Shown: piece by piece, positions 35,543-63,222 of the stretch
Layout of the letters: each line of letters opens with the position of its first letter
Numbering within the stretch: the first letter of the stretch is position 1
Assembly: GCF_001458775.1 (NCBI RefSeq)
Contig: NZ_CZPZ01000031.1
Span: 1 to 64,000 of the forward strand
From: Candidatus Nitrospira nitrificans
GTDB taxonomy: Bacteria; Nitrospirota; Nitrospiria; Nitrospirales; Nitrospiraceae
Length of the DNA stretch: 64,000 bases
Direction of reading: 5' to 3'
Position numbers and translations under genes: made by a program
Notes under the pieces: generated by a model
Told to the model about the DNA's origin: nothing
Seen by the model: the letters and a program-made list of their open reading frames with translations, nothing else
Databases searched by the model: none

Positions 35543-35623
35543 TTGGATGGTAAAGAAAATCGAACCTATTCCATCTGCAGTTGAGCAGAGTATTACACAA
35601 CGGACCAAAGCTTAGAATTGGCC

Positions 35624-36262: not shown

Positions 36263-36375
36263 TCGGAGACCACGTCGGTTAGCGGGTCAAGCTTTTGTAT
36301 CTTAACGTTTGACACAGGTTGGCAAGCAGGACGAGCTTGCAACATGGCCTAAATGGGGAGTAACCCCAGTCCAGA

Positions 36376-37150: not shown

Positions 37151-38914
37151 ATGTGGCCAGATAATGAGACAGACCGAGATTTCCTGAACTTTACGGGTGT
37201 CGCCGACACAGTCGCTGAGATCATTATCCATGCTAAAGGACGACCGATTTCGATAGGTGTTTCTGGAGCCTGGGGCGTAGGTAAATCATCCATGATCAGG
37301 ATAGTCCGCCGTTCCCTCACACAGCGTTCGGGCAATGGCAATGGTGACTTTATCTTCGTGGATTTCAACGCCTGGCTTTATCAGGGATATGACGATGCAC
37401 GTGCTGCACTGATGGAAGTCATTGGCGAAAGGCTTATAGAGGAGGCCGAGAAGCGCAAAAATGGTCTCGACAAGGCCAGGGAATTCTTAGAGCGCGTCAG
37501 ATGGTTTAGGCTTGCGAAGTTGGTGGTGGGCTCTGCTGCAGCCCTGTACGCAGGACTACCCCCGGAAGGGTTAGGTAGCGAAATGAAGGACGCGGCATCG
37601 GGGCTGCTCGATGCAAAGAAGAAGTCTTCTCCTCCTCAGGAAATACATGCGCTTCGGGAAAGCTTCGAGAAAACGCTCGAGGCCATGAATGTGACTCTTG
37701 TAGTCATGATCGATGACCTAGACCGATGCCTGCCCGAAACGACAATCTCGACATTGGAGGCTATTCGGCTATTTCTATTCTTGAAGAACACCGCTTTCGT
37801 GATCGCTGCTGACGACGCGATGATTAAATACGCCGTTCGTCGCCATTTCCCTGACGTAACCGACGATCTTGTTATTAACTATTTTGACAAGCTCATTCAG
37901 GTGCCAATCCGGGTGCCTCCCCTCGGAACGCAGGAAGTGCGCGGGTACATGATGTTGCTATACGTGGAAAACAGTGGCGTTGACGAGAGCGTTAAAGAAA
38001 AACTTCGTGCGGACATCTGTAAGCAACTCGGGCAGACATGGCAAGGCAAGCGGGTTGACCGTGCATTCCTACAGTCGCTGTACGACAAATTTGACCACGA
38101 GCTCGTCGGGAAATTCGACACAGCGGACAGACTCGCGCCCCTGATGACGACTGCGTCAGGAATTTTGGGGAATCCTCGTGTGATTAAGCGCTTCTTGAAT
38201 GCGCTTGCCATCCGTATGGCAATCTCAAACGCTCATGGCGTCGGCGTGGACGAAGCAGTCCTCGCCAAGATGTTGCTGTTCGAGCGAATTGGTGATCCGA
38301 AGGCCTACGCGGAGTTGACGAAGGCGGTGACTGAAAGTAGCGATGGAAAGCCTGCGTTCTTGTCCGAATGGGAAGAGAAAGTGAATGCCGGACAAAAGGT
38401 TTCATTGCAGGCACCGTGGGACGATCCCTTTGTCCTGGAGTGGCTGACGCTGCCCCCAAGGATTGCAGATCGTGACCTCCGGGGCGTGCTTTATGTCAGC
38501 CGCGAACATGCGCCATTGATCAGTCCGCAAGACCGGCTGTCCTCGGAAGCCGCTGAGTTGTTGACAGCTTTGCTCCAGCATCCTGATATGGCTGCCAACT
38601 TGAAGGACCGCCTCTCGAAAGTCCCCAGGACGGAAATCACAGTTATCATGGATCGCCTGTTAGACCGAGCGCGGCAGGAACAAGAATGGGGCGTACCGCC
38701 CGTCCTTGAGGCATGCTTAGTAACGGCAGGAGCGGATGCGGTGCAAGGGGCGCGGCTCGCCGCTTTTCTATCTGAACGTCCGGTGGCGCAAATTAAAGCG
38801 AGCATCATTCCAAAGATTAGCGATCAGCCTTGGGCGACCAGTGTTTTTGAAAAATGGGATACATCGACGGGGTTGTCTGATCCGGTTAGGAAGGCAATAA
38901 AACAGCAGGGATAG
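37151..38914 (+). CDS. qatA: QatA, KAP-family P-loop ATPase of anti-phage system
   Basis: The 587-residue protein opens with SIGVSGAWGVGKSSMIRIV (Walker A, about 39-47) and has VVMIDDLDRCLPETTI (Walker B, about 186) with the KAP-NTPase hallmark 'FNAWLYQGYDD' after the first strand, plus a helical insert (residues ~105-170) that reads like a membrane-proximal segment. KAP NTPases are STAND-like and hold together membrane and signalling complexes. Downstream gene order (QatB, QueC-like QatC, TatD-like QatD) with 1-4 base spacing fixes it as the ATPase of a QatABCD system. Confidence 0.92.
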   Translation: MWPDNETDRDFLNFTGVADTVAEIIIHAKGRPISIGVSGAWGVGKSSMIRIVRRSLTQRSGNGNGDFIFVDFNAWLYQGYDDARAALMEVIGERLIEEAEKRKNGLDKAREFLERVRWFRLAKLVVGSAAALYAGLPPEGLGSEMKDAASGLLDAKKKSSPPQEIHALRESFEKTLEAMNVTLVVMIDDLDRCLPETTISTLEAIRLFLFLKNTAFVIAADDAMIKYAVRRHFPDVTDDLVINYFDKLIQVPIRVPPLGTQEVRGYMMLLYVENSGVDESVKEKLRADICKQLGQTWQGKRVDRAFLQSLYDKFDHELVGKFDTADRLAPLMTTASGILGNPRVIKRFLNALAIRMAISNAHGVGVDEAVLAKMLLFERIGDPKAYAELTKAVTESSDGKPAFLSEWEEKVNAGQKVSLQAPWDDPFVLEWLTLPPRIADRDLRGVLYVSREHAPLISPQDRLSSEAAELLTALLQHPDMAANLKDRLSKVPRTEITVIMDRLLDRARQEQEWGVPPVLEACLVTAGADAVQGARLAAFLSERPVAQIKASIIPKISDQPWATSVFEKWDTSTGLSDPVRKAIKQQG

Positions 38915-38915
38915 G

Positions 38916-39785
38916 ATGGGAACGTCCGCATCTAGCAAAGGGCCAGGCGGCGGAGTCCCTATGGTGCCGCCATGGGTTCCTCCCATTCCTCTCAGTCCCC
39001 CATCGCAAGATGGAGACGGGACCGGGCCAACGGATAGCGGTGACCAAGATGGGCAGTTGCCCATCACCCCTAATCAATCAGCCGCGCAAATACCTCCGTC
39101 TCCAATTGCACCAGCAGCGCGCTTTGGCGGGGCACGGCTTAGTCTGGGCAAGTTCGGACGAGGTGGCGATCGTCAGGATATGCAACGCGGCATCGGAGAC
39201 TACGTCCGGAGAGGATATGGTGGCCAGGCAACCGCCGTAAGGCGGTTCGGCGGCACGGCAGCAACGGCGGGTACCCTTCATGGAGCCTTGTCGAGCGTCG
39301 CCAGAGGGCAGGCCGCTACACCTGGAAGTCGCCTCGACCCGGCCCTTCTCGCTGGTCGATCAGCGCGGGAAGTCATGGACGCAATCATCGAGGCGGTTCG
39401 CCCGGGGGATGGCACTCAGGATGCAGAGGCAAGTCGGGTGGCGATCAAGGACGCCTTATCCGAACTTCTAACGATGTTTCCCGACGCCGATCTTCTCAAT
39501 TTGACCGAGGACCAACGCGGTATGGCAATCGAGCGGTTCGTTGCATTGGATGTGTATCAGCGCGCGGTGCTTGATATTGGCAAAGCAATCCAGGACAAAG
39601 CGCCAACAGCTACGGTCGCTCTTTCGCGTCTCAAAGAAGTAAAGGAGTATGTCAAGCAAACGGTTGCGGCGGCTTTTAGAAAGCTGCAAAGTGCCGGACA
39701 TCGCGTGACGACGGGACGTGTTAACAAAGTCGTTCGCGCCGCTCTGGAGGAAACCTTCCAGGTATTCGAGGGGTATGCATTATGA
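38916..39785 (+). CDS. qatB: QatB, anti-phage system component
   Basis: The N-terminal 130 residues are Gly/Pro-rich and flexible (SSKGPGGGVPMVPPWVPPIP), followed by a largely helical domain of about 150 residues (EVMDAIIEAVRPGDGTQDAE, AVLDIGKAIQDKAPTATVAL). This two-part architecture is that of the poorly characterised QatB protein, and its place directly after the KAP ATPase (two-base gap) and four-base overlap with QatC support the name. No catalytic motif is seen. Confidence 0.85.
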   Translation: MGTSASSKGPGGGVPMVPPWVPPIPLSPPSQDGDGTGPTDSGDQDGQLPITPNQSAAQIPPSPIAPAARFGGARLSLGKFGRGGDRQDMQRGIGDYVRRGYGGQATAVRRFGGTAATAGTLHGALSSVARGQAATPGSRLDPALLAGRSAREVMDAIIEAVRPGDGTQDAEASRVAIKDALSELLTMFPDADLLNLTEDQRGMAIERFVALDVYQRAVLDIGKAIQDKAPTATVALSRLKEVKEYVKQTVAAAFRKLQSAGHRVTTGRVNKVVRAALEETFQVFEGYAL

Positions 39786-41059
39786 AGCTCGTTTGTGCCC
39801 CAAAGGATTACTCTTTCAAAGGGACTTCGAAAGTATTGGAAGTTGTCCTCTATGGGCCAGCGGATAGGCCAACGCGTGGGAGTGTGGGTGCCGCCGTCGC
39901 GGATAAGATTTCTCGCGAAAAGTTGCACGGTGCAACGAGGGCGTGGGACTTTCTGTCGCTTGCGCTATCCGTGATAGCCGCTGACCTGGCCGGTCATCGG
40001 AATATGAGCGCGGATGGTTGGACGCGCGAGTTCGAGTTGGAGATCTCGGTGGCCGATCCTGCTTTTTGGAATGCGCAGCGGGAATTGGTGGGAAAACTGC
40101 TTGAGTTTCTTACCATCGATAGATGGAAAATTAGCTTTATGGGGGGAGGAATTTCGCCCGCCCCGCCCACGCAACCAGTTCTGCCGCCTGAAGATTGCGT
40201 AGCTCTGCTTTCAGGGGGGCTGGATAGCTTCATTGGGAATGTGGATTTAGTCAGTGACGGCCGAAAGCCATTTGCCGTCAGTCAAACTGTGCGAGGCGAC
40301 GCGGAGAACCAACGATCATTTGCGAATACCATCGGAGGTGGTTTGAGGCATCTGCAGATAAATCACAATGCCGAAGTTCCAAATCCTGAGAATCCGCCAT
40401 CGCAGCGGGCGCGATCGCTGATTTTCTTCGCATACGGGGTCCTTGCGGCAACAACACTGAAATGCTATCACGCTGGTGACAACGTGACGCTGTACGTCTG
40501 TGAGAACGGGTTCATCTCGATCAACCCGCCTCTCACCGGATCGCGCCTGGGAAGCCTCAGCACCCGCACGACGCATCCGGTATTATTTGGTCTGCTTCAG
40601 CAGCTGCTGGACGTTGCTGGTCTAAGGGTGCACATGGAGAACCCGTATCAACTTAAGACAAAGGGTGAGATGCTGCGCGACTGCACTAATAAAGCCCTGC
40701 TGAACGCACATGCATCCTACACGACGAGCTGCGGGCGATTTAAGCAATTCGGTTACAAGCATTGTGGACGGTGCGTACCATGCCTCGTCCGCCGGGCGGC
40801 GTTCCACACTGCCAAATTGAGAGATACGACGGAATACGTGTACGTGGATCTTGGGTGCGATGATGCAGAGCACGCGGGTTTTGATGACGTCCGTTCCGTG
40901 GGAATGGCGCTCGCCCAAGTAAAAGCGGATGGCTTGGAGAGTTGGATTGGAACGGCTCTCAGTACCACGCTTTTGGGCGATATTAGTCCACTCCAAGCGA
41001 TGGTAGGCCGCGGGCTCGGCGAGCTAGAATCTTTGTTCAAGCACTACGGTGTTAAATGA
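39782..41059 (+). CDS. qatC: QatC, QueC-like PP-loop ATP-pyrophosphatase
   Basis: The PP-loop SGGLDSFIGN (Ser144-Asp148) and a C-terminal zinc site (CGRFKQFGYKHCGRCVPC; Cys317, 328, 331, 334) match QueC, the 7-cyano-7-deazaguanine synthase. An extra ~140-residue N-terminal region distinguishes QatC from housekeeping QueC. Within Qat systems it may modify a protein or nucleotide by a nitrile-forming reaction; that substrate is unknown. Translationally coupled to QatB and QatD by ATGA overlaps. Confidence 0.92.
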   Translation: MKLVCAPKDYSFKGTSKVLEVVLYGPADRPTRGSVGAAVADKISREKLHGATRAWDFLSLALSVIAADLAGHRNMSADGWTREFELEISVADPAFWNAQRELVGKLLEFLTIDRWKISFMGGGISPAPPTQPVLPPEDCVALLSGGLDSFIGNVDLVSDGRKPFAVSQTVRGDAENQRSFANTIGGGLRHLQINHNAEVPNPENPPSQRARSLIFFAYGVLAATTLKCYHAGDNVTLYVCENGFISINPPLTGSRLGSLSTRTTHPVLFGLLQQLLDVAGLRVHMENPYQLKTKGEMLRDCTNKALLNAHASYTTSCGRFKQFGYKHCGRCVPCLVRRAAFHTAKLRDTTEYVYVDLGCDDAEHAGFDDVRSVGMALAQVKADGLESWIGTALSTTLLGDISPLQAMVGRGLGELESLFKHYGVK

Positions 41060-41817
41060 TCGACTTTCACTGTCATCTCGATCTCTATCCAAACCCGTTG
41101 GCGGTGCGGGACGAGTGCATCACACGCGGCCTGTACGTCCTTTCGATCACGACGACGCCTTCAGCTTGGAAGGGAACGTCCGCATTGGCGGAAAAGAGTC
41201 AATGGATTCAGACGGGGCTTGGTCTACATCCACAGATCGCTCACGAACGAAAAAGTGAGCTGGTGCTATTTGATGAGCTTCTACCTGGCACACCCTACGT
41301 CGGCGAAATAGGATTGGATGGTGGTCCGGAGTACCGACGATATTGGAATGATCAGACAATGGTATTCGATCACGTGCTGAACGTGTGTAGGGAGGCGGGA
41401 GGGCGAGTCATGTCGATCCATAGCCGACACGCGAGCAAGGCTGTGATTGATCGGCTAGAAGGGTGCCCGGATGCGGGGACGCCTGTGCTACATTGGTTTT
41501 CCGGTAGCCTTCGTGACCTAGATCGTGCGGTTGGCCTGGGATGCTGGTTCAGTGTCGGTCCGGCGATGTTGCGCACCAGGAAAGGAAGAGATTTGACAGC
41601 AAAAATGCCTCGCGAACGGGTGCTTACGGAATCAGACGGTCCATTCGCAACAGCCCACGGACGATCATTATGGCCATGGGAAGTCAGTGATGCCGTTAGC
41701 CAACTAGCAGAAATTTGGAGTGCAAGCCAAGAGGATGTTGAGAAGACAGTTTGGAAAAACCTTCAAACTCTGTTGAGGGACGAAAAGGGAGTATTTAAAA
41801 TACCTAATGAAGAATAG
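41056..41817 (+). CDS. qatD: QatD, TatD-family metal-dependent nuclease
   Basis: The protein begins MIDFHCHLDLYPNP, where His5 and His7 are the first metal ligands of TatD DNases; GLGLHPQIAHE, GEIGLDGG (Glu), SIHSRHA (His), LHWFSGS (His) and TESDGPF (Asp) complete the metal site. Length 253 is normal. It is the presumptive nuclease of the Qat system. Confidence 0.92.
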   Translation: MIDFHCHLDLYPNPLAVRDECITRGLYVLSITTTPSAWKGTSALAEKSQWIQTGLGLHPQIAHERKSELVLFDELLPGTPYVGEIGLDGGPEYRRYWNDQTMVFDHVLNVCREAGGRVMSIHSRHASKAVIDRLEGCPDAGTPVLHWFSGSLRDLDRAVGLGCWFSVGPAMLRTRKGRDLTAKMPRERVLTESDGPFATAHGRSLWPWEVSDAVSQLAEIWSASQEDVEKTVWKNLQTLLRDEKGVFKIPNEE

Positions 41818-46026: not shown

Positions 46027-47292
46027 TTATCCCACAAATAATCCGGAACCAACAAAATCCTCACCCTGAGGTGAGGCAGGAGGGCAGAAGTAGTAACCCC
46101 CAGTGACATTTGAGAGAATGCCCTTACCATATAGGGTGTCAGGGCCCGTATTGGGAACCGGAAAGTCTGGGTTTGTTTGCCACATCTGCACAGGCCACTC
46201 AAACTGTTTCCGCAGATCCCTCATGAAAGCGAGAAAGAGGAGGCCGCATTGAATCTTGCCTGTTTCATCCAGTCCGTGGAAAAAGGGGTAGCCACGACGC
46301 AAGAATCTTCGATCAAGATCGGATATGCCAAGAAGATCAAGGCCGGAACGCCGGGGTTGAACCTTGCGTATGTGTGATGCGAGTGAGCCGTCCCTTGCAT
46401 CTTTCGGATCCGGGTAGAGCGGGGTCATGCCCCCTGGTCCAGTACTCTTGCGTGACAATGGTTTCCCACTGCTTTTGCTACGACCAATCGCTGTTTCCTG
46501 CTCCTTCTCGCTCATTGTTTCCCAGATTGGGAGGTTTTCGCGAATCTTACGCCAGACAAGGTAAGAGCCGTTCACACACCAATCCGGTTCCCCATCTTCT
46601 GTGCGGACATAAACCAATCTGTCGAGTTCGCCACCATTCGCATTAGATATGTTGTCAATCCCATCGTCAAATTTAAGAAACTCTTTTTTATCCGGGCGCG
46701 AAAATCCTTGTTCAATGCGACGTACCTGTAGACGCTTGTCGACAAAACCGTGCGCAATTGAACGAGCTATAGCCGTATTTACATATGGATGATCACTAGC
46801 GACCAAGACTAACAAGTCAGCCATCTCATTTATTGGATCGTAGCTATCTCCAATAACTCGGGGCATGGGTTTTAACCAGCGGGGACGAAGCCCGTTCAAG
46901 CCGTATCTATCGTGACCTTCTGCCGTTTCGAACAGTTTGGATCCTAGCGCTATTGTGACCGTTACCCTATAGGTGGTAGGCACCTGTTGGAGAACAGGCA
47001 GGTTTGAAACCGAAGGTGGCTTTCTCATCTCGTGCTGTGCAAACCTATTCAGCCGTCTAAATACCTCCACAAGAGCTTCCCGACTATTTGCGGATACATC
47101 TGTGGCGACAACGGTAAGAAAGGCTTGTGGGTTGATGCGTCCTGCACGTTCTACTGCATATCTCTGTTGATCGATACCCTCTGCCTCTGGTGGCGAAACT
47201 GGCCATTGTGGATCCGTAATTCCCGATTGGAAAGGCCCGGTCAATAATGGAGAAGGTTTTCGAAGAATTACGGGTAAAGCCTTGTCGATCAT
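46027..47292 (-). CDS. DyP-type haem peroxidase
   Basis: The 421-residue protein has the DyP signature with the catalytic acidic motif FLKFDDGIDN (Asp near 210), the axial haem ligand His307 in SHIRKVQPRR, and the terminal FDDG/HxxRxxPR arrangement of DyP peroxidases. A late segment IQCGLLFLAFMRDLRKQFE fits the ferredoxin-like second domain. These enzymes oxidise dyes, lignin-like phenols or other organics with H2O2. GAGGACAGGG precedes the ATG at 47292. The gene follows the glycyl radical enzyme by nine bases, so they are co-transcribed. No signal peptide. Confidence 0.85.
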   Translation of the reverse strand: MIDKALPVILRKPSPLLTGPFQSGITDPQWPVSPPEAEGIDQQRYAVERAGRINPQAFLTVVATDVSANSREALVEVFRRLNRFAQHEMRKPPSVSNLPVLQQVPTTYRVTVTIALGSKLFETAEGHDRYGLNGLRPRWLKPMPRVIGDSYDPINEMADLLVLVASDHPYVNTAIARSIAHGFVDKRLQVRRIEQGFSRPDKKEFLKFDDGIDNISNANGGELDRLVYVRTEDGEPDWCVNGSYLVWRKIRENLPIWETMSEKEQETAIGRSKSSGKPLSRKSTGPGGMTPLYPDPKDARDGSLASHIRKVQPRRSGLDLLGISDLDRRFLRRGYPFFHGLDETGKIQCGLLFLAFMRDLRKQFEWPVQMWQTNPDFPVPNTGPDTLYGKGILSNVTGGYYFCPPASPQGEDFVGSGLFVG

Positions 47293-47301
47293 CCCTGTCC
47301 T

Positions 47302-49851
47302 CTAGGTTGTGAATAATGGGCGTCGGCGATGCTGGGATTGGTGTGCTGGGAAGAGAGCCACAAAGAATTCTGTCCAGCCTCCCATCCGAACCCGGAGAAG
47401 ATTGAAGTCTTCTGGATTCTTCTGTGCAGCTGCGAATGTCTTGGGATCACCAACGGTAAAAGTTGCTATAGAGCCTCCACGTCCTTTTGCGAAACGCTCA
47501 ATAGCTTCTGTAAGAGCACTAACGGGAAAGTTTTCTGAAATATTGTAGTCGACGGGAGCACCGTCGCCGAGTCTGTTCATTACTGAATGAGCATAGCTGA
47601 GAAAACTGCTCTTTAACGATCCTACCCGAGCATGAATCGGGTTGGAGTCAAATTCAGCCTCTCTATCAGTGTGAACAGGCGCTGGCGAGAGATCTGAAGC
47701 TAGTGCTTCTCGGGCGTGACGACCATCCGCTGATGCTCCGGCGAACAAACCAGCGAGGACATATTGCTCGAACGTGCCAACACCTGGAGTTAAAAGAATG
47801 TTGAAACTCTTGCCATATCTTCTGCGCAATTGCTGCAGTCGCTCTTGATGCAGGGGGTGGCCCCAAGCCTCCCAGACACAATCACAAAATGTCTCCAGCA
47901 ATGCCCAGGCTATTTTGTCCACATCTTGTGAGCCAAACCCAAATTTAGAGAGTGCTGAACATTGCTGACGTATGTGCGCAATGCGGTGCGGACTTACATG
48001 CTGCCCAAAAGCTGGATGTCTCTTGTCCTCCTCACCAATGAGCGATTTTCCCCAATCAGTGGATAGGCATGTAACTAACTCATTTAAAGCAACCGATTGC
48101 TCCTCAAATACTAGCCGTTGTATTGCATAGAGCGAATCAGTAGCAGTGCTAATCCCTGTCATCAAAGGCGAAAAAATCCTATAGTTGGCTCCACCGGCCA
48201 CCAAATCTCGTCCTCTTTCTATACACCCCGCAATTAGGCCGGAAAGGAGTGGTGATGGTGCGATACCTTCCTTATTGCCGTATGACGAAAGTACGCTATG
48301 GATATAGCGATGGCAGCCCAGCAGGATATGCTCTCTAAGTATTTGCCATAGATCATTCCACGAAGTAATGCTTGAGGCTGGAGTCGTCCTCCATGACCAC
48401 TTCTCGCCGCGAAGGTTGAGCGTCCCCGATCCACTCAGGTTGGCACCTTGATTCAATGTATATTCAAGACAAGCGAGCGCCGGCACGAAACCAAAACTAA
48501 ACTCTGTTTCACCAGCAAACATCGTTTCATAACAACCATCACATGCATAGTTCCGGGCAGTCCTAAGTGGAACAGGAAACCCAGAATGTTTGCTAAGGGC
48601 GGGAACAATACGATCATCATTAAGTAAGACAGGACTTGCTCCCCCGCTCAGTATCGCTTTTGCAGCCATCTTCAGGATGGCTCGAGGTGTTTTGGCATGA
48701 ACTCGTAAGTCTAGCGTAGGACTATTCAGTGGAAGTCGACGGGCCGACTCAAGGCAGAGTTCAGTGACCACATTGCACGCATCAGACGGTTTGAGTTCGT
48801 CGTTTGGTAGCACGCCTCCGATGGTGATTTGCTGCATCCACTGGTTTAGTAGGCCACCCTGATCATAGTTCGATGCTCCAACAAATCCGGTGAGCACTCC
48901 GTCTGTTGGGGTAAATCTATTTTCTGCATGCCGATAATTCAGTAGTGCCCGTTCATCGAGCTTTATCCAAAAGGCATCAACAAGTTCTTGTGCTGACTCT
49001 CTGGTCAATCGCCCTGCCTTCAGATCTCGTTGATAATAAGGGTAAAGAATTTGATCCAAACGTCCCAGTGGAACGATTTCGACTGTCCAGTGGAGTGCAC
49101 AGTGAACGATATAGATGGACTGCAAAGACTCTACAAAAGTCTCAGCCTTGTGTTCGGGTACTCTGCGGAGGCGAAGCGCAACTTGTGTCAAGTTGGTTCT
49201 TCGAGCATCATCGTCAGGTAACGTTCTTATGGCATCTTCCACTCGATCTGCACACCGGTTGGAGTAATAGATGACTGCTTCCATGGATTCGATAACTGAG
49301 GTATAGAAGTTTCGGGTATCTGCTCTTGCTTTGCTATGCCGTCTTCGACAGTCATCAATAATCGCGCGAATACCTCGCTGCACTACACGGCTATGGTCAG
49401 GAACTATATGACCCATGGGAGAACGCTCGCTGAGGTAGCCCAACATTCCTCTTAACTCTTCATCCTTCGTGAGATAACCGATGAATTCTTTTCCTTGCCC
49501 AACTGAAAAAGGCGGCAGCGTGCCTGCGATCAACTCGTCTGGCTCGATCTGACATGTTCCATTGGTGGCAGCGACAACCGGATCTGTAACGATCTCCAGC
49601 ATCCTTCGCACAGCTCGCGCCTTTTGAATAGAAACGGGTAGGCGCTCCAGTGCTACCCGTTGTGCCTTGGAGATATCGCGTCTACCACGAAATAGATGCC
49701 CTACCTGCTCCTCACGGAGCCAAAGAGGCTTATGTTTCCACCTCTCAAAAACTCGTTCAAGTAAGCGGCAGATACGAGGTGACGGCAAATCAGGATGCCC
49801 AGGGGAAAGCGATTGTAAGTAACGCCAGTATTCAACATCATTGTGAATCAT
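47302..49851 (-). CDS. Glycyl radical enzyme (PFL-like dehydratase/lyase family)
   Basis: Over ~850 residues the protein follows the PFL_N plus Gly_radical layout. The catalytic cysteine is Cys445 in ACDGCYETM (numbered from the GTG at 49866), with the base Glu447, the C-x-E motif of dehydratase-type members. The radical-bearing glycine is predicted as Gly830 in LLRVRMGGWTEFFVALFP, the C-terminal motif. The ATG at 49851 follows a GGTGAG site at nine bases; GTG 49866 is an alternative start. No activating radical SAM enzyme lies beside it. Such enzymes are oxygen-sensitive and work in anaerobic carbon metabolism; the substrate is unknown, and the partner genes (DyP peroxidase, HAD/VOC protein) are unusual. 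Confidence 0.85.
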   Translation of the reverse strand: MIHNDVEYWRYLQSLSPGHPDLPSPRICRLLERVFERWKHKPLWLREEQVGHLFRGRRDISKAQRVALERLPVSIQKARAVRRMLEIVTDPVVAATNGTCQIEPDELIAGTLPPFSVGQGKEFIGYLTKDEELRGMLGYLSERSPMGHIVPDHSRVVQRGIRAIIDDCRRRHSKARADTRNFYTSVIESMEAVIYYSNRCADRVEDAIRTLPDDDARRTNLTQVALRLRRVPEHKAETFVESLQSIYIVHCALHWTVEIVPLGRLDQILYPYYQRDLKAGRLTRESAQELVDAFWIKLDERALLNYRHAENRFTPTDGVLTGFVGASNYDQGGLLNQWMQQITIGGVLPNDELKPSDACNVVTELCLESARRLPLNSPTLDLRVHAKTPRAILKMAAKAILSGGASPVLLNDDRIVPALSKHSGFPVPLRTARNYACDGCYETMFAGETEFSFGFVPALACLEYTLNQGANLSGSGTLNLRGEKWSWRTTPASSITSWNDLWQILREHILLGCHRYIHSVLSSYGNKEGIAPSPLLSGLIAGCIERGRDLVAGGANYRIFSPLMTGISTATDSLYAIQRLVFEEQSVALNELVTCLSTDWGKSLIGEEDKRHPAFGQHVSPHRIAHIRQQCSALSKFGFGSQDVDKIAWALLETFCDCVWEAWGHPLHQERLQQLRRRYGKSFNILLTPGVGTFEQYVLAGLFAGASADGRHAREALASDLSPAPVHTDREAEFDSNPIHARVGSLKSSFLSYAHSVMNRLGDGAPVDYNISENFPVSALTEAIERFAKGRGGSIATFTVGDPKTFAAAQKNPEDFNLLRVRMGGWTEFFVALFPAHQSQHRRRPLFTT

Positions 49852-49894
49852 TGTGATTTTGCTCACCCTTCAAGATTTACTTCAATCCTCGCGC

Positions 49895-51124
49895 CTAAGG
49901 TGCATCTACTGTCAGTGGAAACGTGAGGGATATCAAATTGCCATCCGGGTCTTTGAACAGCGTTTTGCAACTCGATTCGGCTCCTGTCGTTGTCGAAAGA
50001 AATTCTAGCCCACGCGAAGACAGAATGTCCGATACCTCTCCAATAGGTTTCGTGACGGTCAGCTCCAAGCAAGGAGTACTCAGTACCCCGGCCGATGTCA
50101 GAGCGGGAAGCCTTGCTCGCTGCAATCTGATAACAAATCCTTCTTCAGCGTCTATCTCCGCCCAATCATCTGCGCTCCTGGACTTCAGGGATAAGCCAAA
50201 AGTCGAAGTGTAGAAGGCAATCGATCGAGTTATGTCTCTTACTTGAATCGAGGCATGTCCTCCCGAAATCAGTCTTTCAGATGTGGACTTCAGATTGGGA
50301 ATATTGCTGGATTGCCCAATTTGTGGATTGTCTCGTAGTAATGGCTCACCCGATTCTATCTTTGTGACGGGGTAATCCATTGGAAAAATTTCGAGTTTAG
50401 AAAAATCCTGGTGGTTGGAATTAATCACGAAAAAGCGTTTATCGGGATGATCAATCTTGCATGCGCGCATCGCCGAAATCGCTAGCGCAATATTGCTTGG
50501 GTCGTCATCGGACATGCCGAACCGATGGGGAGGTTGCTTCCCATACTTTTGAAGACTACGGTTGACCGCGTCACGGATGGCTAGCTTCTTGACTGATGGT
50601 ACGGTCATAGCAGGGTCCTTGACTCCAAGCGTTTCACGTACAGTGGGGTGCGTAACCGTATAGATACCCAATATAGGTGGCAATTTAGGAAGTAGACCTT
50701 TTTCAACGAGCAACCGCATACCATACTCAATTGTCTCTGGTGCATGACCTCTGGCTGTGACCAGGGCAATCGGGCGTGTTTCACTAGCAGCGTGTACCAG
50801 TAGGGGCCAGGATGGGCCCTGCCACGAGTGTGCACCTTCAACCATGACACGGAGATCTCGAATAAAGGGTTGCTCGTCAATGGCAACGCCGTCACAATCA
50901 CGAAAATCCCGAAATGTAGCATCTCGGATGGACCAGGCTTGCCATTTACCTGGAAGCCCTAGCGCGCGCTGAATAGTGGCAAATTCACCAGAAGTAATCG
51001 ATTGTTCAATCTGAGTCTCGGCATTCCACAGATAGAGGCGAGTTGGGAGAAACAATAGATTGTCGTCGATGTCAAACAGATAGTTACTAACACTTCCATC
51101 TTTCTCCATCATGTCGAGCGCCAT
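49895..51124 (-). CDS. HAD-like phosphatase domain fused to VOC/glyoxalase domain
   Basis: The N-terminal ~250 residues carry a HAD-type motif FDIDDNLLFLPT (DxD at the start), RPIALVTARGHAP (motif II Thr) and MSDDDPSNIALA (motif IV). The C-terminal ~130 residues form a VOC domain (GGHASIQVRDITRSIAFYTS, LFKDPDGNLISL), with the beta-alpha-beta-beta-beta pattern of glyoxalase or bleomycin-resistance proteins. I give ATG 51124, but ATGs at 51112 and 51178 are also possible; GGGAGA is very close to 51124. It is the first gene of the leftward operon. The linker includes SERLISGGH. Role unknown; probably sugar-phosphate or small-molecule modification. Confidence 0.7.
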   Translation of the reverse strand: MALDMMEKDGSVSNYLFDIDDNLLFLPTRLYLWNAETQIEQSITSGEFATIQRALGLPGKWQAWSIRDATFRDFRDCDGVAIDEQPFIRDLRVMVEGAHSWQGPSWPLLVHAASETRPIALVTARGHAPETIEYGMRLLVEKGLLPKLPPILGIYTVTHPTVRETLGVKDPAMTVPSVKKLAIRDAVNRSLQKYGKQPPHRFGMSDDDPSNIALAISAMRACKIDHPDKRFFVINSNHQDFSKLEIFPMDYPVTKIESGEPLLRDNPQIGQSSNIPNLKSTSERLISGGHASIQVRDITRSIAFYTSTFGLSLKSRSADDWAEIDAEEGFVIRLQRARLPALTSAGVLSTPCLELTVTKPIGEVSDILSSRGLEFLSTTTGAESSCKTLFKDPDGNLISLTFPLTVDAP

Positions 51125-52715: not shown

Positions 52716-52994
52716 CTATTGCTTGGGGCAGAGCTGGAGGAAGTTTCTTCGCATGACCATGGTTTTGAAGGGGCTCCCTGCCTGAATCATGTAGTACTTT
52801 GTCAGCGCGGCTTGGCATTCTTTTGGCGCCTGTGGGCCCGCTGCTAAGCATAGCAGACATTCACAGGCCAGCCTGGTGTCGCCTTCCAAGAAGGACGGTT
52901 TGGTCGGCGTTTGCGCCGATGCATCATGGGCTATGGCGAGGAGGCTCACTCCCACAAAAACCGCGATCCAGTTGTGTCTTTTCCACCAATTCAT
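52716..52994 (-). CDS. trbM: TrbM/KikA-like conjugal transfer protein
   Basis: A signal peptide (IAVFVGVSLLAIAHDASAQT) is followed by the TrbM core LACECLLCLAAGPQAPKECQAA with its characteristic cysteines (CEVMLCL.. pattern) and ending FLQLCPKQ. The 92-residue size matches. TrbM-type proteins are periplasmic accessory factors of conjugative pilus and DNA transfer. It starts the leftward string after the type IV secretion genes. Confidence 0.85.
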   Translation of the reverse strand: MNWWKRHNWIAVFVGVSLLAIAHDASAQTPTKPSFLEGDTRLACECLLCLAAGPQAPKECQAALTKYYMIQAGSPFKTMVMRRNFLQLCPKQ

Positions 52995-53040
52995 GGGCTC
53001 ACCTCAGTGCTATCCAGTGAGATGTTCTCGATCATAGAAG

Positions 53041-54138
53041 TCATCGACCGCCTCTGGTCCGCTCCAAGGTAGGGCTCCGTGGGACATTTGGCATGCGATC
53101 CGTCCGCGCGGCTGTGTGATCAAACTGAGGCACGACCGGTTCCTGGGTGCTGGTACGCGCCGCCTCTTTCAGGTGATGCTGTTCACGGACCCCAAGGGAA
53201 TCCAGCTTGATGACCTCCCAGCGATTACGATTCCCCGGTTGTGAAGCCGTGCCCATCGACACGCCGGGCTCATCTCGTAGCGGAACCGTCACCGGTTCAC
53301 GCCCTTGTTGCACGAGGGCCACCGCATCACCCCGTTGCACTTTCCCTTGTTCAAACGCGCGGCCCAGGTCGATGCCCCAGATCTCTCGTTCACCATGGTC
53401 TGTCACCACCTTCACAAAATAACTCTTGGCATTCTGGACATCGTGGTTGTAATGGCTAATGCCGTGGTCAACAACGGTACCCACCACGACTCGTTCGCCC
53501 TGCAGGCGCGCCTTCGCTTCTTCGACAGCCGCGGCGATCATGGTGGGGGAATCCCCCCGTGCCTTCAGAATTGCTTCGAGCGTGGCCACCGCGACCTGCT
53601 GGCCAGAGTTCAAAGCCTTGTCTAGCTTTCCGGCCTGATCCTCCGTCGCCCGATTATGTGAATCCTCTCGCTGGACAGGCTGTTGTGCCGTCTTGCCACG
53701 AACTGGGCGCTGATCCTTGCGGTCTTCCGCTCGCGCTAAGTCGATCCCACGCGGGGTATAGCCCTCCACATCGAGTCCGGCGATCGTGGCTTGCACCCAG
53801 GCTTCCGTTTTGAACTCAGTGGTGCCGTTCACCCGCACGGTGGTCCAGCCCTTGGCTTTTGCCCGGAGGACCATTCCCTGAATGACGCTCGGGTCGTCAT
53901 GTTCCGTGACCAGCCTCCTCCCGTGATCGGTAAACGCAATTTTCGTCGGTTCACCTGGCGCAGTGCGGTAATAGAATTGCTCACCGGCTTCGATGAATCG
54001 CTTCCGCAAGGAATCGGCAGCATCACGACGCTGATTGAGTCGTGGTTGTTCTGCATTCTCGCCCTGAGTGCCTTTCGAAGGCCTAGGCTCGTCGTTCTGC
54101 TTCGTCTCTCGCGCTTCGTCCAGACCTATCTCATTCAT
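53041..54138 (-). CDS. LPD7-type conjugation-associated protein
   Basis: An Arg/Glu-rich N-terminus leads to an LPD7-like domain (YYRTAPGEPTKIAFTDHGRR, LVTEHDDPSVIQGMVLRAKA, KGWTTVRVNGTTEFKTEAWVQ), otherwise found at the C-terminus of relaxases and TraI-like proteins. A second domain (VVVGTVVDHGISHYNHDVQN, YFVKVVTDHGEREIWGIDL) is a small barrel common in such proteins. It probably assists relaxase or DNA handling. Encoded between trbM and the OmpA-like lipoprotein. Confidence 0.7.
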   Translation of the reverse strand: MNEIGLDEARETKQNDEPRPSKGTQGENAEQPRLNQRRDAADSLRKRFIEAGEQFYYRTAPGEPTKIAFTDHGRRLVTEHDDPSVIQGMVLRAKAKGWTTVRVNGTTEFKTEAWVQATIAGLDVEGYTPRGIDLARAEDRKDQRPVRGKTAQQPVQREDSHNRATEDQAGKLDKALNSGQQVAVATLEAILKARGDSPTMIAAAVEEAKARLQGERVVVGTVVDHGISHYNHDVQNAKSYFVKVVTDHGEREIWGIDLGRAFEQGKVQRGDAVALVQQGREPVTVPLRDEPGVSMGTASQPGNRNRWEVIKLDSLGVREQHHLKEAARTSTQEPVVPQFDHTAARTDRMPNVPRSPTLERTRGGR

Positions 54139-54156
54139 GGTGTCCCTTCCTCTCTC

Positions 54157-55134
54157 CTATCCGTACCACTGCGGCCAGACGGAGGCCGGATTGTGCTCCT
54201 TCACTTCAATCTCGACCCGTCGGTTCTTTGCCCGACCTTTCTTGGTCGCATTGTCGGCCACATGTTGCCCGATCGGCACGATGGTGATCTCGATGTGGTT
54301 TGGGTCATAGCCCTGCGCGATGAGATAGGCGCGGGCCTTGTGTGCCCGTTGTTTGGCTGTCTCATGTTCGATCCAGAGATCCTTGTCTCCGTCCGTGTAT
54401 CCACGCACGTGCAGGCAAGGACCACGGCTCATGATCTGTTTCAGGTGGGATTGCAGCGGCTTGCTGGGACGAAACTCAGACCGACCTGTCCGTTCGGATA
54501 CACGGAAGATGATACTGTGACGATGCACTTCCACCTGTTCCCGTTCACTCAAATCAATGACTCGGGGTCTCCACGAGCCGTTCTGCCCTTCGTGTATCTG
54601 ATGTGGAGGGGAGGTGGATGGCACTGCTGATGGTCCGATGCTGCAGGCAGGCGCCACCGTTGCTGATCGCTCCTCCTCACTCTGCGTTGTCCCGGTATGC
54701 GACAAGCTCTGATCGAATACAGCCTGAGACGTATCACCATCACGTGGGATAGGAGTGCTCGTCTGTGGACCGTTCGATTCTGGTGAAACAGGGGGGATCG
54801 TGAGCGCTGTCTTTGTGATCGTGAGGCCGGACCGAGATTTACCTTTCGCCAGTTCTTGCTGGTTGAGTTGCATGAGCGTCAGTGCGGCACTCAACTCCTG
54901 GACCTGTTGTGTCAGCGATTCCATTTGTCTGGTGAGGAAACTCCGCTCCTGCTTCTCACGCTGGTCGCTCTTTACCCGTTCGCGGTACTGCTGGATCATG
55001 TCATCGCTGTTGATGGGCACACGAGCCGCACCGGATGGCACCACTGGTTTCTGCACACAGGCCAGGGTCGCGGCGCAGGCGATGAGGATTACGAGTGCTT
55101 GAAGCCCTGCCTGTCGTTTCACGAATGTTGTCAT
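54157..55134 (-). CDS. OmpA-like lipoprotein
   Basis: A signal peptide with lipobox (CAATLAC, cysteine about 26) is followed by a coiled-coil-prone segment (SFLTRQMESLTQQVQELSAA) and a C-terminal peptidoglycan-binding domain with the strand pattern LHVRGYTDGDKDLWIEHETA, QRAHKARAYLIAQGYDPNHI and VADNATKKGRAKNRRVEIEV, the OmpA/MotB family (GYTD, NRRVE). It should anchor in the outer membrane and bind peptidoglycan, scaffolding the transfer apparatus. It overlaps VirD4 by four bases, so it is in the same operon. Confidence 0.85.
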   Translation of the reverse strand: MTTFVKRQAGLQALVILIACAATLACVQKPVVPSGAARVPINSDDMIQQYRERVKSDQREKQERSFLTRQMESLTQQVQELSAALTLMQLNQQELAKGKSRSGLTITKTALTIPPVSPESNGPQTSTPIPRDGDTSQAVFDQSLSHTGTTQSEEERSATVAPACSIGPSAVPSTSPPHQIHEGQNGSWRPRVIDLSEREQVEVHRHSIIFRVSERTGRSEFRPSKPLQSHLKQIMSRGPCLHVRGYTDGDKDLWIEHETAKQRAHKARAYLIAQGYDPNHIEITIVPIGQHVADNATKKGRAKNRRVEIEVKEHNPASVWPQWYG

Positions 55135-57194
55135 ACGTCCCTCTCTTCTCTGTCTCGATCCATCAGGGATCGAGCAACGTGCTTCTCCGTTCTTTGGGCT
55201 CTCCCTTCTTCGCTCACAGGACTCCTCTTCTCTGAGATGTCGTCATCGATCTTGTCGGTCCATTGCAGCTGTGCCACAAAGGCATCAACCAGATTGTTCA
55301 CTTCTTCAGGCGTCGGCGTGTCGCGTGGCACAACCGGCGGCAGGGTGGTGAGGTCCATTGCCAACTTCGAGAGGTCGATCGGTTCATTCGGCTGTACTGG
55401 ACGCACACGCCGTTCGACTTTGGCGCGATGGAGTTCCAGGTCGAGGCGGGGAATCTCCACGGATAGCTCCCGGCGCACGAACGCCGCCTCTTCGAGTTCA
55501 GCTTGGGTGGGCATCCGCTTTCCCACCGACGCGAGGAACGGACTGATGCGCTTCAACCGATCGGTGAAGACCGGATCGGCATAGAACCGGGCCTTGTCGC
55601 AGAGGATCGGCTTCGTATGCATGAGGTTGATGATCGCCCGCTGGTCCCCGAGTTCCTTCACTTCCTGTGGCAGCAGGAGCGGCCGCGCCTGTTCCGACTG
55701 GGTGGAACTGGACGACGCTTGTTTGCCGTGGCCCCAGCTGAGGGGGCGGCTCGTACCGGTCGAGATCGCCTCGGCTGTATAGGTGCCGAGCATCTGAGAG
55801 TAGTACTGGGCGTCTCGTTGCTCGCGAGGCGCAAACAGGATCTGGCAGGCATGGTTCGTGACGAATGTCCGCGCGTCCTTTTCCCCATAGACCGATTCGA
55901 GCTGCGAGAGGCTCTGAATGATCGGGAGCAGGCGCAGATTGTAGCCCGCCATGAAGCCGACGGCCTTCGCGAGAATATTCACCCGCCCGAGGGCGGGGAA
56001 CTCATCCAAGATCACGAGGCACTGGTGCTTCAACCGGGGATTCGTCGCGGGCAAGTCGACGGTGTTGTGATGAATCAGCTGCGAGAAGAACAGATTGACC
56101 AGCAACGCCGCGTCGCTCAGCCGATTGGCCGGAATGCCGACATAGATCGACATCCGTTGCACGCGCACCCGTTTCAGGTCGAAGTCCGTCGCACTCGTCG
56201 CCGCATCGACAATGGGATTGCTGAAGATGGTGAGGGGAGCCGTCAGGGTCGCGAGAATGCTCGCCATCGTATTCTCGCTGGTGGCACAGAACCGGTGCAG
56301 GGCCGCCGTACAGTCGTCGCTCAGCGGGGCGTCACTCTTGGCCCTGGTGCTGATGAGGTCTTGCAGATAGTCCTTGATGGGCTGCCCCTTACCGGAGGCC
56401 TGCCGGAGCACTTCTCCGAAACTACAGGGTATGGAAGGAGTCTCCATTATATATAAAGCCAGGCCGAGAAAGAGGTTGCGAGCGGACTCGTTCCAGAACG
56501 CATCTTTGATCTGCTCCGTCGGATAGAGCACCTGCCCGATGGCTTGGATTTCGCCCACACGCCGATTCGGGTCGCGATCGACCGCATCTAATGGATTCCA
56601 GCGGTGGGTCTGGCCGTCGGCGCCAAAGGGATTGAACAGAAAGACGTGATGCCCGTGCGCCTGTCGGAACTTCGACGTGTAGGCGAAGTTCTCCATTTTG
56701 ATGTCCAGGACGACCACCGACTCATCGTAGTGGAGTAGGTTCGGGAGCACGATGCTTACGCCTTTGCCTGATCGGGTCGGCGCCGCCAGCAACACGAATT
56801 CCTGGCCCCCATAGACCAAGTACCGTCGCCCCACTTTTCCAACGATGACTCCGCGCTCTCCATAGAGCCCGGCCTGTTGAATTTCACTATGAGATGCAAA
56901 TCGCGCCTCGCCATGGAGCGGTTTCTTCTGGTTGGTCAGGGACACGAGCAGCAGCGCCGGGAGACCAAATCCGACGAATCCCCCGACCACGGCGGAGAAT
57001 TGTAGTCGCTTCCGCTGAATCGGATCCTCCCTATAGGCTCGCCAGGAGTCGGGCCAGCTGGTCAGGGAGAGGTCTTCAGGCATCTGTTTGTTGGCGAGGG
57101 TGAAGACAGCGCCGGCGAGGGCATCCGCTCCGCAGAGCCCAAGCGGAAGATAGAGCAACAGGGCCATCGCGATCCGCATGCTCTTACGTGACAT
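55131..57194 (-). CDS. virD4: VirD4/TraG-type coupling ATPase
   Basis: The coupling protein that links the relaxosome to the secretion channel. Two N-terminal membrane segments are followed by Walker A FVLLAAPTRSGKGVSIVLPN (about residue 130) and Walker B HQCLVILDEFPALGRVNILA, and the sequence ends in a helical, acidic tail. Length 687 and the AAA-like TraG/TraD organisation match VirD4. The gene lies just after the VirB11 gene, which it follows by a few bases on the same strand. Confidence 0.95.
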   Translation of the reverse strand: MSRKSMRIAMALLLYLPLGLCGADALAGAVFTLANKQMPEDLSLTSWPDSWRAYREDPIQRKRLQFSAVVGGFVGFGLPALLLVSLTNQKKPLHGEARFASHSEIQQAGLYGERGVIVGKVGRRYLVYGGQEFVLLAAPTRSGKGVSIVLPNLLHYDESVVVLDIKMENFAYTSKFRQAHGHHVFLFNPFGADGQTHRWNPLDAVDRDPNRRVGEIQAIGQVLYPTEQIKDAFWNESARNLFLGLALYIMETPSIPCSFGEVLRQASGKGQPIKDYLQDLISTRAKSDAPLSDDCTAALHRFCATSENTMASILATLTAPLTIFSNPIVDAATSATDFDLKRVRVQRMSIYVGIPANRLSDAALLVNLFFSQLIHHNTVDLPATNPRLKHQCLVILDEFPALGRVNILAKAVGFMAGYNLRLLPIIQSLSQLESVYGEKDARTFVTNHACQILFAPREQRDAQYYSQMLGTYTAEAISTGTSRPLSWGHGKQASSSSTQSEQARPLLLPQEVKELGDQRAIINLMHTKPILCDKARFYADPVFTDRLKRISPFLASVGKRMPTQAELEEAAFVRRELSVEIPRLDLELHRAKVERRVRPVQPNEPIDLSKLAMDLTTLPPVVPRDTPTPEEVNNLVDAFVAQLQWTDKIDDDISEKRSPVSEEGRAQRTEKHVARSLMDRDREERDV

Positions 57195-57202
57195 CGGTCC
57201 CT

Positions 57203-58312
57203 CTACGCCCTCACGAGGGTGGCTTCTCCGAATCGCGCCACGAGTTTCGCGATCGGGTCATAATGGACTTCCGCCACGTAACGGTCCTTCTTGATAGGCT
57301 GGCCGTCCTCGTCGTAGTGATTCTGCGCGACCACGTGGAGGATCACGTCGATGGTCAAGGCCACCAGGCGCTTGAGGGTCGGCACATCGTAGGTCGCCGC
57401 CTGTTCGTGTTCTTTGCACATGAAGACGTAGCGTTCGGCCGCGAGGGCACAGGACTCCGCGTGGTAGGAGGTGATTGATCCACTGTGGCCGGTGGTCAGG
57501 AGTTTCAGGAAGTCGAAGGCTTCTCCGCCGCGCAACTCGGCGAGGAGCACTCGGTCCGGCTTCATGCGGAGCGTGGAGGCAATCAACTCCGACGGTGTGA
57601 TTGTCGCAGTGCCCTGGCCTCCTTTGGCGTACAAGAGATGCACCCGGTTGCCGTGCTGGGGGAGCAACAATTCGCGCACATCTTCGATCGTGATGAGCCG
57701 TTCCTGTTTCGGGATCACCTGACAGATCGATTTCATGAGCGTGGTTTTGCCGGAGCCGGTGTCCCCCACGACGGCAATGTTCTTCTTCGCCAGCACGGCT
57801 GTCCGGATGAACGCACCCAATTGACGATCGGTCAGATACTGCACGAGCTGTCGCTCAGTGGAATCGAGCTCGGAAGCGCGATGATCCAGCGTCGCCGCCT
57901 TGGCCCAGACATAGCGGCTGAAGGCTCCTTCCGCGTCGTACTCGTCGAGGGTCTTGATCCAGGCGCTCGGACGGCGGATTGAGATCGAGATCGTTCCCAG
58001 TTCCACAGCCGGCGGCAGCACGATTTGTACCCGTTCCCCATCCGGCAACATGGCCGAGAGAATCGGGTGGTGCGGTCCGATTTCTTGCTCGGTCGCCGTC
58101 GCGATGGCCGTGGCGAGCGCGGTGAGTCGATCCAAAGTCAGGTCCGGTGAGCGGTGATGCTGCCAGGCTGCGCCGACCTCGATAAAGACTTCCTGTGGCC
58201 GATTGACGACGATCTCGGTCGCGCCGGGCAGCGCGAGATATTGCAGCAAGGGCCGCAACAACTCGCGCACCATCGTGTCGTGTGCGAGTAGATCAGTGGG
58301 GGTGCAGTTCAT
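57203..58312 (-). CDS. virB11: VirB11-type secretion ATPase
   Basis: The 369-residue hexameric ATPase drives pilus and substrate movement. Walker A VVGDTGSGKTTLMKSI, the Asp box ITIEDVRELLLP, Walker B-like MRPDR... (LRMKPDRVLLAELRGGEAFD) and His box LTTGHSGSITSYHAES are present. The frame is open to 58606 but the ATG at 58312, reading MNCTPTDLLAHDTMVRELLR, begins the family-like part; it overlaps the VirB10 end by 20 bases. Confidence 0.92.
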   Translation of the reverse strand: MNCTPTDLLAHDTMVRELLRPLLQYLALPGATEIVVNRPQEVFIEVGAAWQHHRSPDLTLDRLTALATAIATATEQEIGPHHPILSAMLPDGERVQIVLPPAVELGTISISIRRPSAWIKTLDEYDAEGAFSRYVWAKAATLDHRASELDSTERQLVQYLTDRQLGAFIRTAVLAKKNIAVVGDTGSGKTTLMKSICQVIPKQERLITIEDVRELLLPQHGNRVHLLYAKGGQGTATITPSELIASTLRMKPDRVLLAELRGGEAFDFLKLLTTGHSGSITSYHAESCALAAERYVFMCKEHEQAATYDVPTLKRLVALTIDVILHVVAQNHYDEDGQPIKKDRYVAEVHYDPIAKLVARFGEATLVRA

Positions 58313-59693
58313 AGACGGTGCTGAAATCCAAATCTCGCGCAACGAAGATCGTCCCGCGGTCGCCCTGGTTCTTGTAGAGCGTAGGTTTGATGTTGATAGT
58401 GGATTGGAGGATGAGTTCCGCCATGCGGTTCCCCGTTGTGGCGGAATGTTGATAGATCCCCAGACTCTGCGCGCCCCCGCCTCCGGCCTGTGTCGCGGTG
58501 GCCAAGCCGATCCCGTCTTGCACGAGGGAGAGGAGAAAGGCCGCGCCCAGTCGGTCCCACCAATGGTTATCCACGACCCCCACCAATCCGGAGGTGCCGA
58601 GTGCATCGGCGGCGGGTGAATTCAGATTGATGACCACTCCGGTCGGCGTCTTGACCCTGGTCCAGAGGAGAAAGAGGCGGCGCTGGCCCTGCGCCATCGT
58701 CGCTGCATATTCGCCGACCGCTTCCGATCCACGTTCCAAGAGGACGACGCGACCGTTGTCGCTGTACACATCGCTGTTCAGCACACAGGTCGCCATGCCG
58801 GCGACTTCATTGATCACTCGTACGGTCAAGGCGCAGTCGATCGTTCTGCCTTTCGGCAAGATGAGATTCCGATCCCCCAAGAGACCGGCTTGGACTTTTG
58901 GGGTATCGGACGGTGTCAGGAGCCCGCCGATGGGACCGGCTCCGCTGGCCGGAGGACCGGGCGGCGCCGCGAGCCCGACGCTCGTCACGCCGATCGACGG
59001 ACCGCTGGCTCCGCCCATGTACCCGACCGATGCTGGCATCGAACTTCCTGTGTCTGCCGTGCTGACCGGCATCGCGGGTCCTCCTAGCAGGTTCCCGGAC
59101 CCCGTGTCCGGCTGTCTCGTGCCATTAAGGAGTTCGCGGACCAAGGAGATGGCCGCGTCTGGTCCGGTTCCCACTGGTTGAGTCCGGGGACTGTCCGAAG
59201 CAGGGGAGTTCGTCACAAGGACCTCCCCACCGAACCGACTTGAAGAGCGTGTCCTGAGCGATGGGTTGCCTGGAGTCTGGTCAGGAACCAGTCCCATGGG
59301 TCTATTTTCGTCAGCGATTCCTCGGCCAAGGGACGACTGCCTCATAGGGTCAGCGGACGCGACAGGCGACTGGCTGGTCGACCGCACGAGTGCGGTTGTC
59401 TGTTGAACTGGAAGCGGATCGGTCTCAAAGACCCGTTTCAGTCCAACTTGGGCCGGTTTGTTCTCCACCTTCGCCGCCCGTTCCTCTTGTGTCGCTTCCG
59501 CTTTCCGCTTCGCACTCCACGTGTTCGCTGCAAAGACGAGTCCCACCACGAGCACGATGGCCATCACGACCAGAAATGCCACGCGCGCCGCGGTCTCGTT
59601 CCTGCCGCTGGCCTGCTGGTTGACCGATACAATTCCATCGATGATGGGAGGTTTCTTCTCAGCTTTCTCTCGTGACTCTTGTGGTTGTTCCAT
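58293..59693 (-). CDS. virB10: VirB10/TrbI-like channel protein
   Basis: One N-terminal membrane helix (AAFLVVMAIVLVVGLVFAAN, near residue 40) leads to a long Pro/Gly/Ser-rich linker (about 70-250) and the conserved C-terminal barrel (MATCVLNSDVYSDNGRVVLL, SPAADALGTSGLVGVVDNHW). This is the TrbI/VirB10 scaffold crossing both membranes and gating the channel. Confidence 0.92.
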   Translation of the reverse strand: MEQPQESREKAEKKPPIIDGIVSVNQQASGRNETAARVAFLVVMAIVLVVGLVFAANTWSAKRKAEATQEERAAKVENKPAQVGLKRVFETDPLPVQQTTALVRSTSQSPVASADPMRQSSLGRGIADENRPMGLVPDQTPGNPSLRTRSSSRFGGEVLVTNSPASDSPRTQPVGTGPDAAISLVRELLNGTRQPDTGSGNLLGGPAMPVSTADTGSSMPASVGYMGGASGPSIGVTSVGLAAPPGPPASGAGPIGGLLTPSDTPKVQAGLLGDRNLILPKGRTIDCALTVRVINEVAGMATCVLNSDVYSDNGRVVLLERGSEAVGEYAATMAQGQRRLFLLWTRVKTPTGVVINLNSPAADALGTSGLVGVVDNHWWDRLGAAFLLSLVQDGIGLATATQAGGGGAQSLGIYQHSATTGNRMAELILQSTINIKPTLYKNQGDRGTIFVARDLDFSTVYELHPH

Positions 59694-59702
59694 GTTTGTT
59701 TC

Positions 59703-60629: not shown

Positions 60630-60642
60630 AACCAGCCCCTCC

Positions 60643-61416: not shown

Positions 61417-61438
61417 GTCCTCGGTCTGATGAGCCGGA

Positions 61439-62164: not shown

Positions 62165-62167
62165 GCC

Positions 62168-63214: not shown

Positions 63215-63222
63215 CGGTTGCT

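Follow-up and report, generated by a model that had tools for sequence, protein, structure and literature searches.

What would a glycyl radical enzyme (GRE), a kind of enzyme normally killed by oxygen, be doing beside a haem enzyme that consumes peroxide? The question is raised by three leftward genes in the window (the whole 64,000-nt stretch of DNA analysed here), which comes from a Nitrospirota genome of 4.1 Mb and 99.77% completeness. To our knowledge, known GREs rely on a radical SAM activase that is sensitive to oxygen, and the class is regarded as one of anaerobes only. The first-pass annotation had found the combination of a HAD–VOC fusion, a GRE and a DyP-type peroxidase both surprising and unfamiliar; the surprise was justified, and the combination is indeed no known GRE operon, the GRE belonging to a separate deep clade. 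The GRE–DyP pairing, which is recurrent and in one case fused into a single protein, suggests an as yet undescribed peroxide-driven route to a protein radical.

The three closely spaced genes proved to be real open reading frames (Table 1), with intergenic gaps of 28 nt between the HAD–VOC and GRE genes and 9 nt between the GRE and DyP genes. For the GRE, the ATG at 49851 (MIHNDVEYW) is more likely to be the true start than the GTG at 49866, as it agrees with homologues and has a ribosome-binding site. The longest open reading frame of the HAD–VOC gene starts at 51238, and a start at 51124 is plausible. Between the DyP gene and the next lie 270 nt, and a terminator-like site is found at 46076–46059; the next gene encodes a phospholipase D (PLD)-like protein and may therefore have its own transcription. 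This gene is probably a fourth member of the cassette, and was counted in the conserved neighbourhood because an orthologue lies by the Hymenobacter GRE–DyP genes and a trypsin–PLD fusion is found in Haloferula. GC content is 47–50% in the cassette, 60% in the adjoining conjugation genes and 55% in the whole window, so that the cassette appears to be cargo acquired separately.

Table 1. Genes of the cassette and of the element that carries it (positions within the window)
Feature	Position	Strand	Evidence or remark
Tyrosine integrase ORF	13345..14751	minus	overlaps tRNA-Ser (13426-13515)
HmaABC anti-phage system	23965..35542	plus	PADLOC HmaA 1708 bits, HmaB 1036 bits, HmaC 1165 bits
QatABCD anti-phage system, complete	37151..41817	plus	PADLOC and NCBIfam matches
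PLD-like (HKD superfamily) protein, 605 aa	43939..45756	minus	PLDc_2 7.4e-21
DyP-type haem peroxidase, 421 aa	46027..47292	minus	Dyp_perox_C 5.6e-26, Dyp_perox_N 6.3e-12
Glycyl radical enzyme (GRE), 854 aa from GTG	47302..49866	minus	PFL-like 1.1e-108
HAD-like hydrolase domain and VOC (glyoxalase/bleomycin-resistance fold) fusion	49895..51124	minus	Pfam/NCBIfam, motifs
Conjugation genes: TrbM, coupling protein, VirB11-like ATPase, TrbI, CagX/VirB9, TrbL/VirB6	52716..63933	minus	context of carrying element

The integrase gene and tRNA-Ser site probably mark the attachment end of an integrative element. From there the order is relaxase, HmaABC, QatABCD, cassette and type IV conjugation genes, so that the cassette is cargo of an integrative conjugative element, within its defence region. 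HmaABC and QatABCD, both complete, are themselves neighbours (23965–41817) on this Nitrospirota element at tRNA-Ser, and shortly past QatD are encoded a CAAX-protease-like protein (41807–42364) and a CbiA/P-loop-like protein (42374–43468, a weak match).

For characterization of the GRE, a combination of profile searches, phylogeny and active-site motifs was used. Alignment of the clade to which it belongs with canonical GREs by hhalign gave a probability of 100 (E 6.8e-77, 712 columns). The radical-loop glycine, Gly830, lies in RVRMGGW and the thiyl cysteine, Cys445, in DGCYE; these two motifs and PGVGTF are the longest runs invariant in all four clade members, RVRMGGW being the longest. With the Gly_radical Pfam model the window GRE scored 15.3 bits, under the cut-off of 22.2, and the Haloferula GRE 23.3, above it. 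In a maximum-likelihood tree of the four clade members and 29 other GREs, the clade was monophyletic (SH-aLRT 99) with a stem of 0.98 changes per site, and fell outside the PflD, YbiW, HypD and Pdu (diol-dehydratase) references. All cut-offs of the NCBIfam GRE equivalogs were missed widely (260 versus 678 bits for the closest subfamily model), with the window GRE far under those for PFL, CutC, HypD, indoleacetate/hydroxyphenylacetate decarboxylase and sulfopropanediol dehydratase. The diol-dehydratase residues His281, Ser282 and Asp447 (C. butyricum glycerol dehydratase numbering) are not kept in the window GRE, where alignment with the 1r8w chain placed Glu and Ile at 281 and 282 and a gap at the WHD Asp447; ordinary diol dehydration is therefore unlikely. 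Beyond the radical glycine, the tail reads HQxxHxRRP in the clade, as against QxxIIxRT in canonical GREs. An AlphaFold model of the GRE, built from a 5-row alignment, had a mean pLDDT of 44 and was too poor for geometry.

The window DyP scored 166.8 bits with TIGR01413 (cut-off 100.5), and its closest solved relatives by sequence are of the EfeB/YcdB type (A-type DyP). Its haem-pocket residues Asp210, His307 and Arg332/333 are kept, and haem binding is predicted from these conserved Asp, His and Arg residues, which are also found in the Haloferula DyP and, taking both halves together, in the frameshifted Hymenobacter DyP. The DyP domain of Asticcacaulis is divergent, matching the C-terminal Pfam model only, and the Asp of its GxxDG motif is not evident. 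No Tat or Sec signal was seen in the window DyP, which should thus share the cytosol with the GRE.

Co-occurrence in other genomes, a check proposed in the first-pass annotation, was then borne out by GRE–DyP pairs in three further phyla, so that all 4/4 members of the GRE clade, from four phyla, have a DyP partner. Two were found by tblastn of plasmids, among 51 records with any GRE: those of Hymenobacter cellulosilyticus (64% identity to the window GRE) and Asticcacaulis sp. AND118 (33%). A genome scan, for which the query was a two-row GRE alignment with weak N-terminal patterns, returned one relative, from Haloferula luteola (58%). On the Hymenobacter plasmid (L022:11497-17905) the GRE, DyP, PLD, HAD and VOC genes follow consecutively, with about 11 nt between GRE and DyP; GRE, DyP and HAD are each split by a frameshift, through sequencing error or decay, and the neighbours are a trypsin-like gene (52.7 bits) and weakly STAND-like genes. 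In Haloferula the order is trypsin–PLD fusion, VOC, GRE, DyP and HAD, with GRE and DyP adjacent or overlapping; the 979-aa trypsin-like peptidase–PLD fusion (L025:897-3836) lies immediately upstream of VOC–GRE–DyP, and a 2210-aa defence reverse transcriptase of the RT_UG29 class (L025:10183-16815, 1308 bits) adjoins the cassette. Asticcacaulis encodes a single 1326-aa protein, DyP N-terminal and GRE C-terminal, which is preceded by DUF2278 and FGE-like genes and lies among TonB receptors and hydrolases, a neighbourhood unlike a defence island. Since the combination is found again in three other phyla with different gene orders, it exceeds chance, and the differing orders together with the fusion show that function, and not solely shared descent of one arrangement, maintains the GRE–DyP link.

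Further clade members were found neither in overlapping Nitrospirota samples of 198, 236 and 396 genomes nor in phylum, class and family samples around Haloferula (289, 384 and 260 genomes, respectively). The Haloferula phylum sample did hold a second GRE group with DGCWE and RISGW or RVSGW motifs (L027, L028, L038, L040), of which several paralogues occur per genome and which had no activase in a flank of roughly 1 kb. Viral contigs searched with clade GRE or DyP queries and with the RVRMGGW DNA pattern held no clade member, and searches with canonical GREs returned ordinary phage PFLs only; these are canonical full-length PFL-type GREs of 738–743 aa with RVSGY, on contigs of up to 221 kb (L057-L062).

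Six activases were used as queries against 17–64 kb of DNA at each clade locus, and no GRE activase homologue was detected near any of the 4/4. At reference GRE loci (Nitrospirota, E. coli pflD and ybiW, HypD and Pdu), where flanks were about 1–3 kb, the activase was mostly beside the GRE, at a distance of up to about 1 kb; at some GRE loci of Verrucomicrobiota, for which flanks were short, none was seen. The reference loci carry an activase and not a DyP gene. The outcome that the first-pass annotation had named as refuting, tight clustering of the GRE with a characterised family sharing the partners seen here, was not observed. The window's genome contains one PFL-like gene, and neither NrdG nor a PFLE/PFLC-type activase was found in it, the best TIGR02494 match scoring 21.7 bits against a cut-off of 174. 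Matches to TIGR02493, the PFLA model, were rejected as MoaA-, QueE- and PqqE-like by sequence; the best PFLE_PFLC match is in a complex I gene region and spans only model positions 38–98, the ferredoxin-like insert of that model. The Haloferula genome gave no TIGR02494 match and one weak NrdG-like radical SAM ORF (21 bits; cut-off 126), which could conceivably serve as a borrowed activase in that organism. For Hymenobacter and Asticcacaulis, the search covered the DNA around each locus. The missing activase, the DyP–GRE fusion and the PLD gene all go beyond what had been read from the window at first.

The HAD–VOC fusion was recognised correctly at the outset, its C-terminal VOC part by Pfam (Glyoxalase, 4.7e-08) and its HAD part by four HAD motifs in order (DIDD 56, VTAR 160, KK 217, SDDD 243), in place of any significant Pfam match. 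The window VOC is orthologous to the stand-alone VOC genes of the Hymenobacter and Haloferula loci (38–41% identity), and VOC genes are orthologous across the three loci (38–61%); in a tblastn search of 72,556 plasmid records, the sole match to HAD–VOC was the VOC of the Hymenobacter GRE–DyP locus. By eye, the DPDGN strand of the VOC domains has no Glu where a metal-binding one is usual, which makes a binding role likelier than glyoxalase chemistry. The HAD parts from the three loci showed no similarity to one another by BLAST, and as these are not orthologous the HAD role appears generic. The PLD of the window is orthologous to that of Hymenobacter (38%), and VOC and PLD genes are each present at three GRE–DyP loci. 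Members of this PLD family are frequent on rhizobial plasmids that have no GRE, and the PLD is thus a shared part and not a GRE-specific one. On Bradyrhizobium pB41S5 (L043) and Undibacterium pUYM01 (L046) it accompanies trypsin-like proteases, S1/P1 and non-specific nucleases, HAD and DUF2278 proteins; PLD, protease, nuclease, HAD and DUF2278 genes, the last also found before the Asticcacaulis fusion, look like an unnamed set of modular parts.

Comparison with known systems sets the cassette apart from each. PFL2/glycerol dehydratase-type GREs (PflD, 1,2-propanediol dehydratase, HypD, CutC and the archaeal PFL2 2f3o) share full-length fold homology and the Cys and Gly loops with the clade, which differs in having a DyP partner and no activase, and in reading RVRMGGW followed by its own tail where they have RVxGY and the canonical one. 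The deferrochelatase-peroxidase EfeB/YcdB shares the haem Asp, His and Arg with the window DyP and includes its best solved relatives, but the latter scores 168 bits with TIGR01412 against a cut-off of 428, is free of the twin-arginine signal of E. coli EfeB, has no EfeUO genes in its operon and is GRE-partnered or, in one locus, GRE-fused. For a radical made with an oxygen-dependent cofactor, the precedent is class I ribonucleotide reductase: a metallocofactor subunit there generates the thiyl radical of a ten-stranded barrel related to the GRE one. The likeness to it would be one of working principle and not of sequence membership; the cassette would use a haem peroxidase as oxidant, and its barrel protein is a GRE that retains the glycyl loop. 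DrmC and DpdK, defence proteins of the PLD type, are matched weakly by the window PLD, and PADLOC 2.0 gave no match for GRE, DyP or HAD–VOC and only weak ones (DrmC/ZacB) for PLD. Trypsin-like partners in Haloferula and Hymenobacter recall the trypsin/EAD conflict systems (Kaur et al. 2020, PMC7159879), the text of which does not mention peroxidase, formate lyase, glycyl or phospholipase D. Noncanonical GRE relatives found via the conserved radical glycine, the aminoacyl radical enzymes (JACS 2024, PMC11528403), differ from the present clade, which keeps the glycine and has another partner; that article mentions no peroxidase. Searches of the open literature for a GRE with DyP or in an anti-phage setting gave no paper on the present pairing, subscription journals being outside their scope.

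Our leading explanation, held tentatively, is that the GRE radical is made by DyP and peroxide instead of by radical SAM chemistry, in a mobile module for which defence is the likeliest role. The basis for it is the linkage in four phyla, one fusion, both radical sites kept, the haem site kept in three of the loci and no activase found near the loci or in the window's own genome. DyP and H2O2 would give a ferryl or protein radical, and the oxidising hole would pass to Cys445 and/or Gly830 of the GRE; judging from the chemistry of the two families, remote protein residues may be oxidised by DyP compound I, and to form a thiyl or glycyl radical the GRE barrel would need no more than such a one-electron oxidant. 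The GRE radical would then act on a putative substrate. The HAD hydrolase and the degenerate VOC fold would bind or process this substrate or its product, and the PLD-like enzyme, which is linked to trypsin in Haloferula, may be a further effector. The module would more likely act against phage or other elements than serve housekeeping catabolism, and oxidative stress may be its trigger. The defence role is our best guess by guilt by association, from the position of the cassette among defence systems on mobile elements: clear systems adjoin it at 2/4 loci (the window and Haloferula), trypsin/STAND genes at 1/4 (Hymenobacter) and neither at 1/4 (Asticcacaulis). The fullest version, in which an aerobe has a glycyl/thiyl radical enzyme activated by a haem peroxidase and H2O2, not by S-adenosylmethionine, as a redox-triggered defence of mobile elements, is possible but doubtful. 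Weighing against the peroxide-driven explanation are the number of loci (n=4), of which Haloferula and Hymenobacter have GREs about 60% identical to the window's, the divergent DyP domain and non-defence neighbourhood of Asticcacaulis, the frameshifts in the Hymenobacter GRE and DyP genes, and the Haloferula NrdG-like protein, which might serve as activase.

Among the alternatives, an ordinary PFL or dehydratase operon, a BMC locus and an EfeUOB iron-uptake operon were considered and rejected. That the GRE is an ordinary anaerobic one, which borrows a host radical SAM activase while DyP merely clears peroxide to protect it, or deals with iron or haem, is unlikely though credible. Some canonical GREs do use activases encoded elsewhere, the weak Haloferula protein is a candidate of this kind, and relatives of the DyP, EfeB among them, are peroxidases linked to iron uptake; however, the host's own genome, nearly complete, yielded no PflA-, PFLE- or NrdG-type activase, a protective DyP fails to explain the single-polypeptide fusion or the strict linkage in 4/4 loci, and the tail past the radical glycine is not that of an ordinary GRE. 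It is improbable that the protein keeps the GRE fold without radical chemistry, as a scaffold, sensor or substrate-binding partner to DyP as sole enzyme: the absent activase and the missing diol-dehydratase residues would suit this, but RVRMGGW and DGCYE are among the most conserved stretches in four phyla, and a dead enzyme needs neither.

The first-pass annotation had itself offered a catabolic or natural-product pathway or a redox-controlled unit, of which the last fits best and the former two are unsupported, given the lack of transport, regulator and BMC genes, the missing acid/base residues of diol dehydratases and the defence island setting. It seems to us quite unlikely that the genes (HAD dehalogenase, VOC, GRE and peroxidase) are a horizontally transferred operon for catabolism or detoxification of an environmental compound, with no link to defence. 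HAD, VOC and peroxidase families are frequent in catabolic operons, and TonB receptor and hydrolase genes surround the Asticcacaulis locus. Against this, the cassette has no transporter, regulator or secreted form, its DyP being free of a signal peptide; two further loci also adjoin defence-type genes, PLD- and trypsin-type partners are ill-suited to catabolism, and the HADs are not orthologous between loci.

If activation of the GRE by DyP is true, it would be a second biological route to a glycyl radical, with the activase swapped for a haem peroxidase, and would offer a direct test of a change of radical source in ribonucleotide-reductase-like barrels. Oxygen-compatible GRE chemistry might also become available to biotechnology. 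If the defence setting is meaningful, a metabolic radical enzyme would join the known kinds of phage defence.
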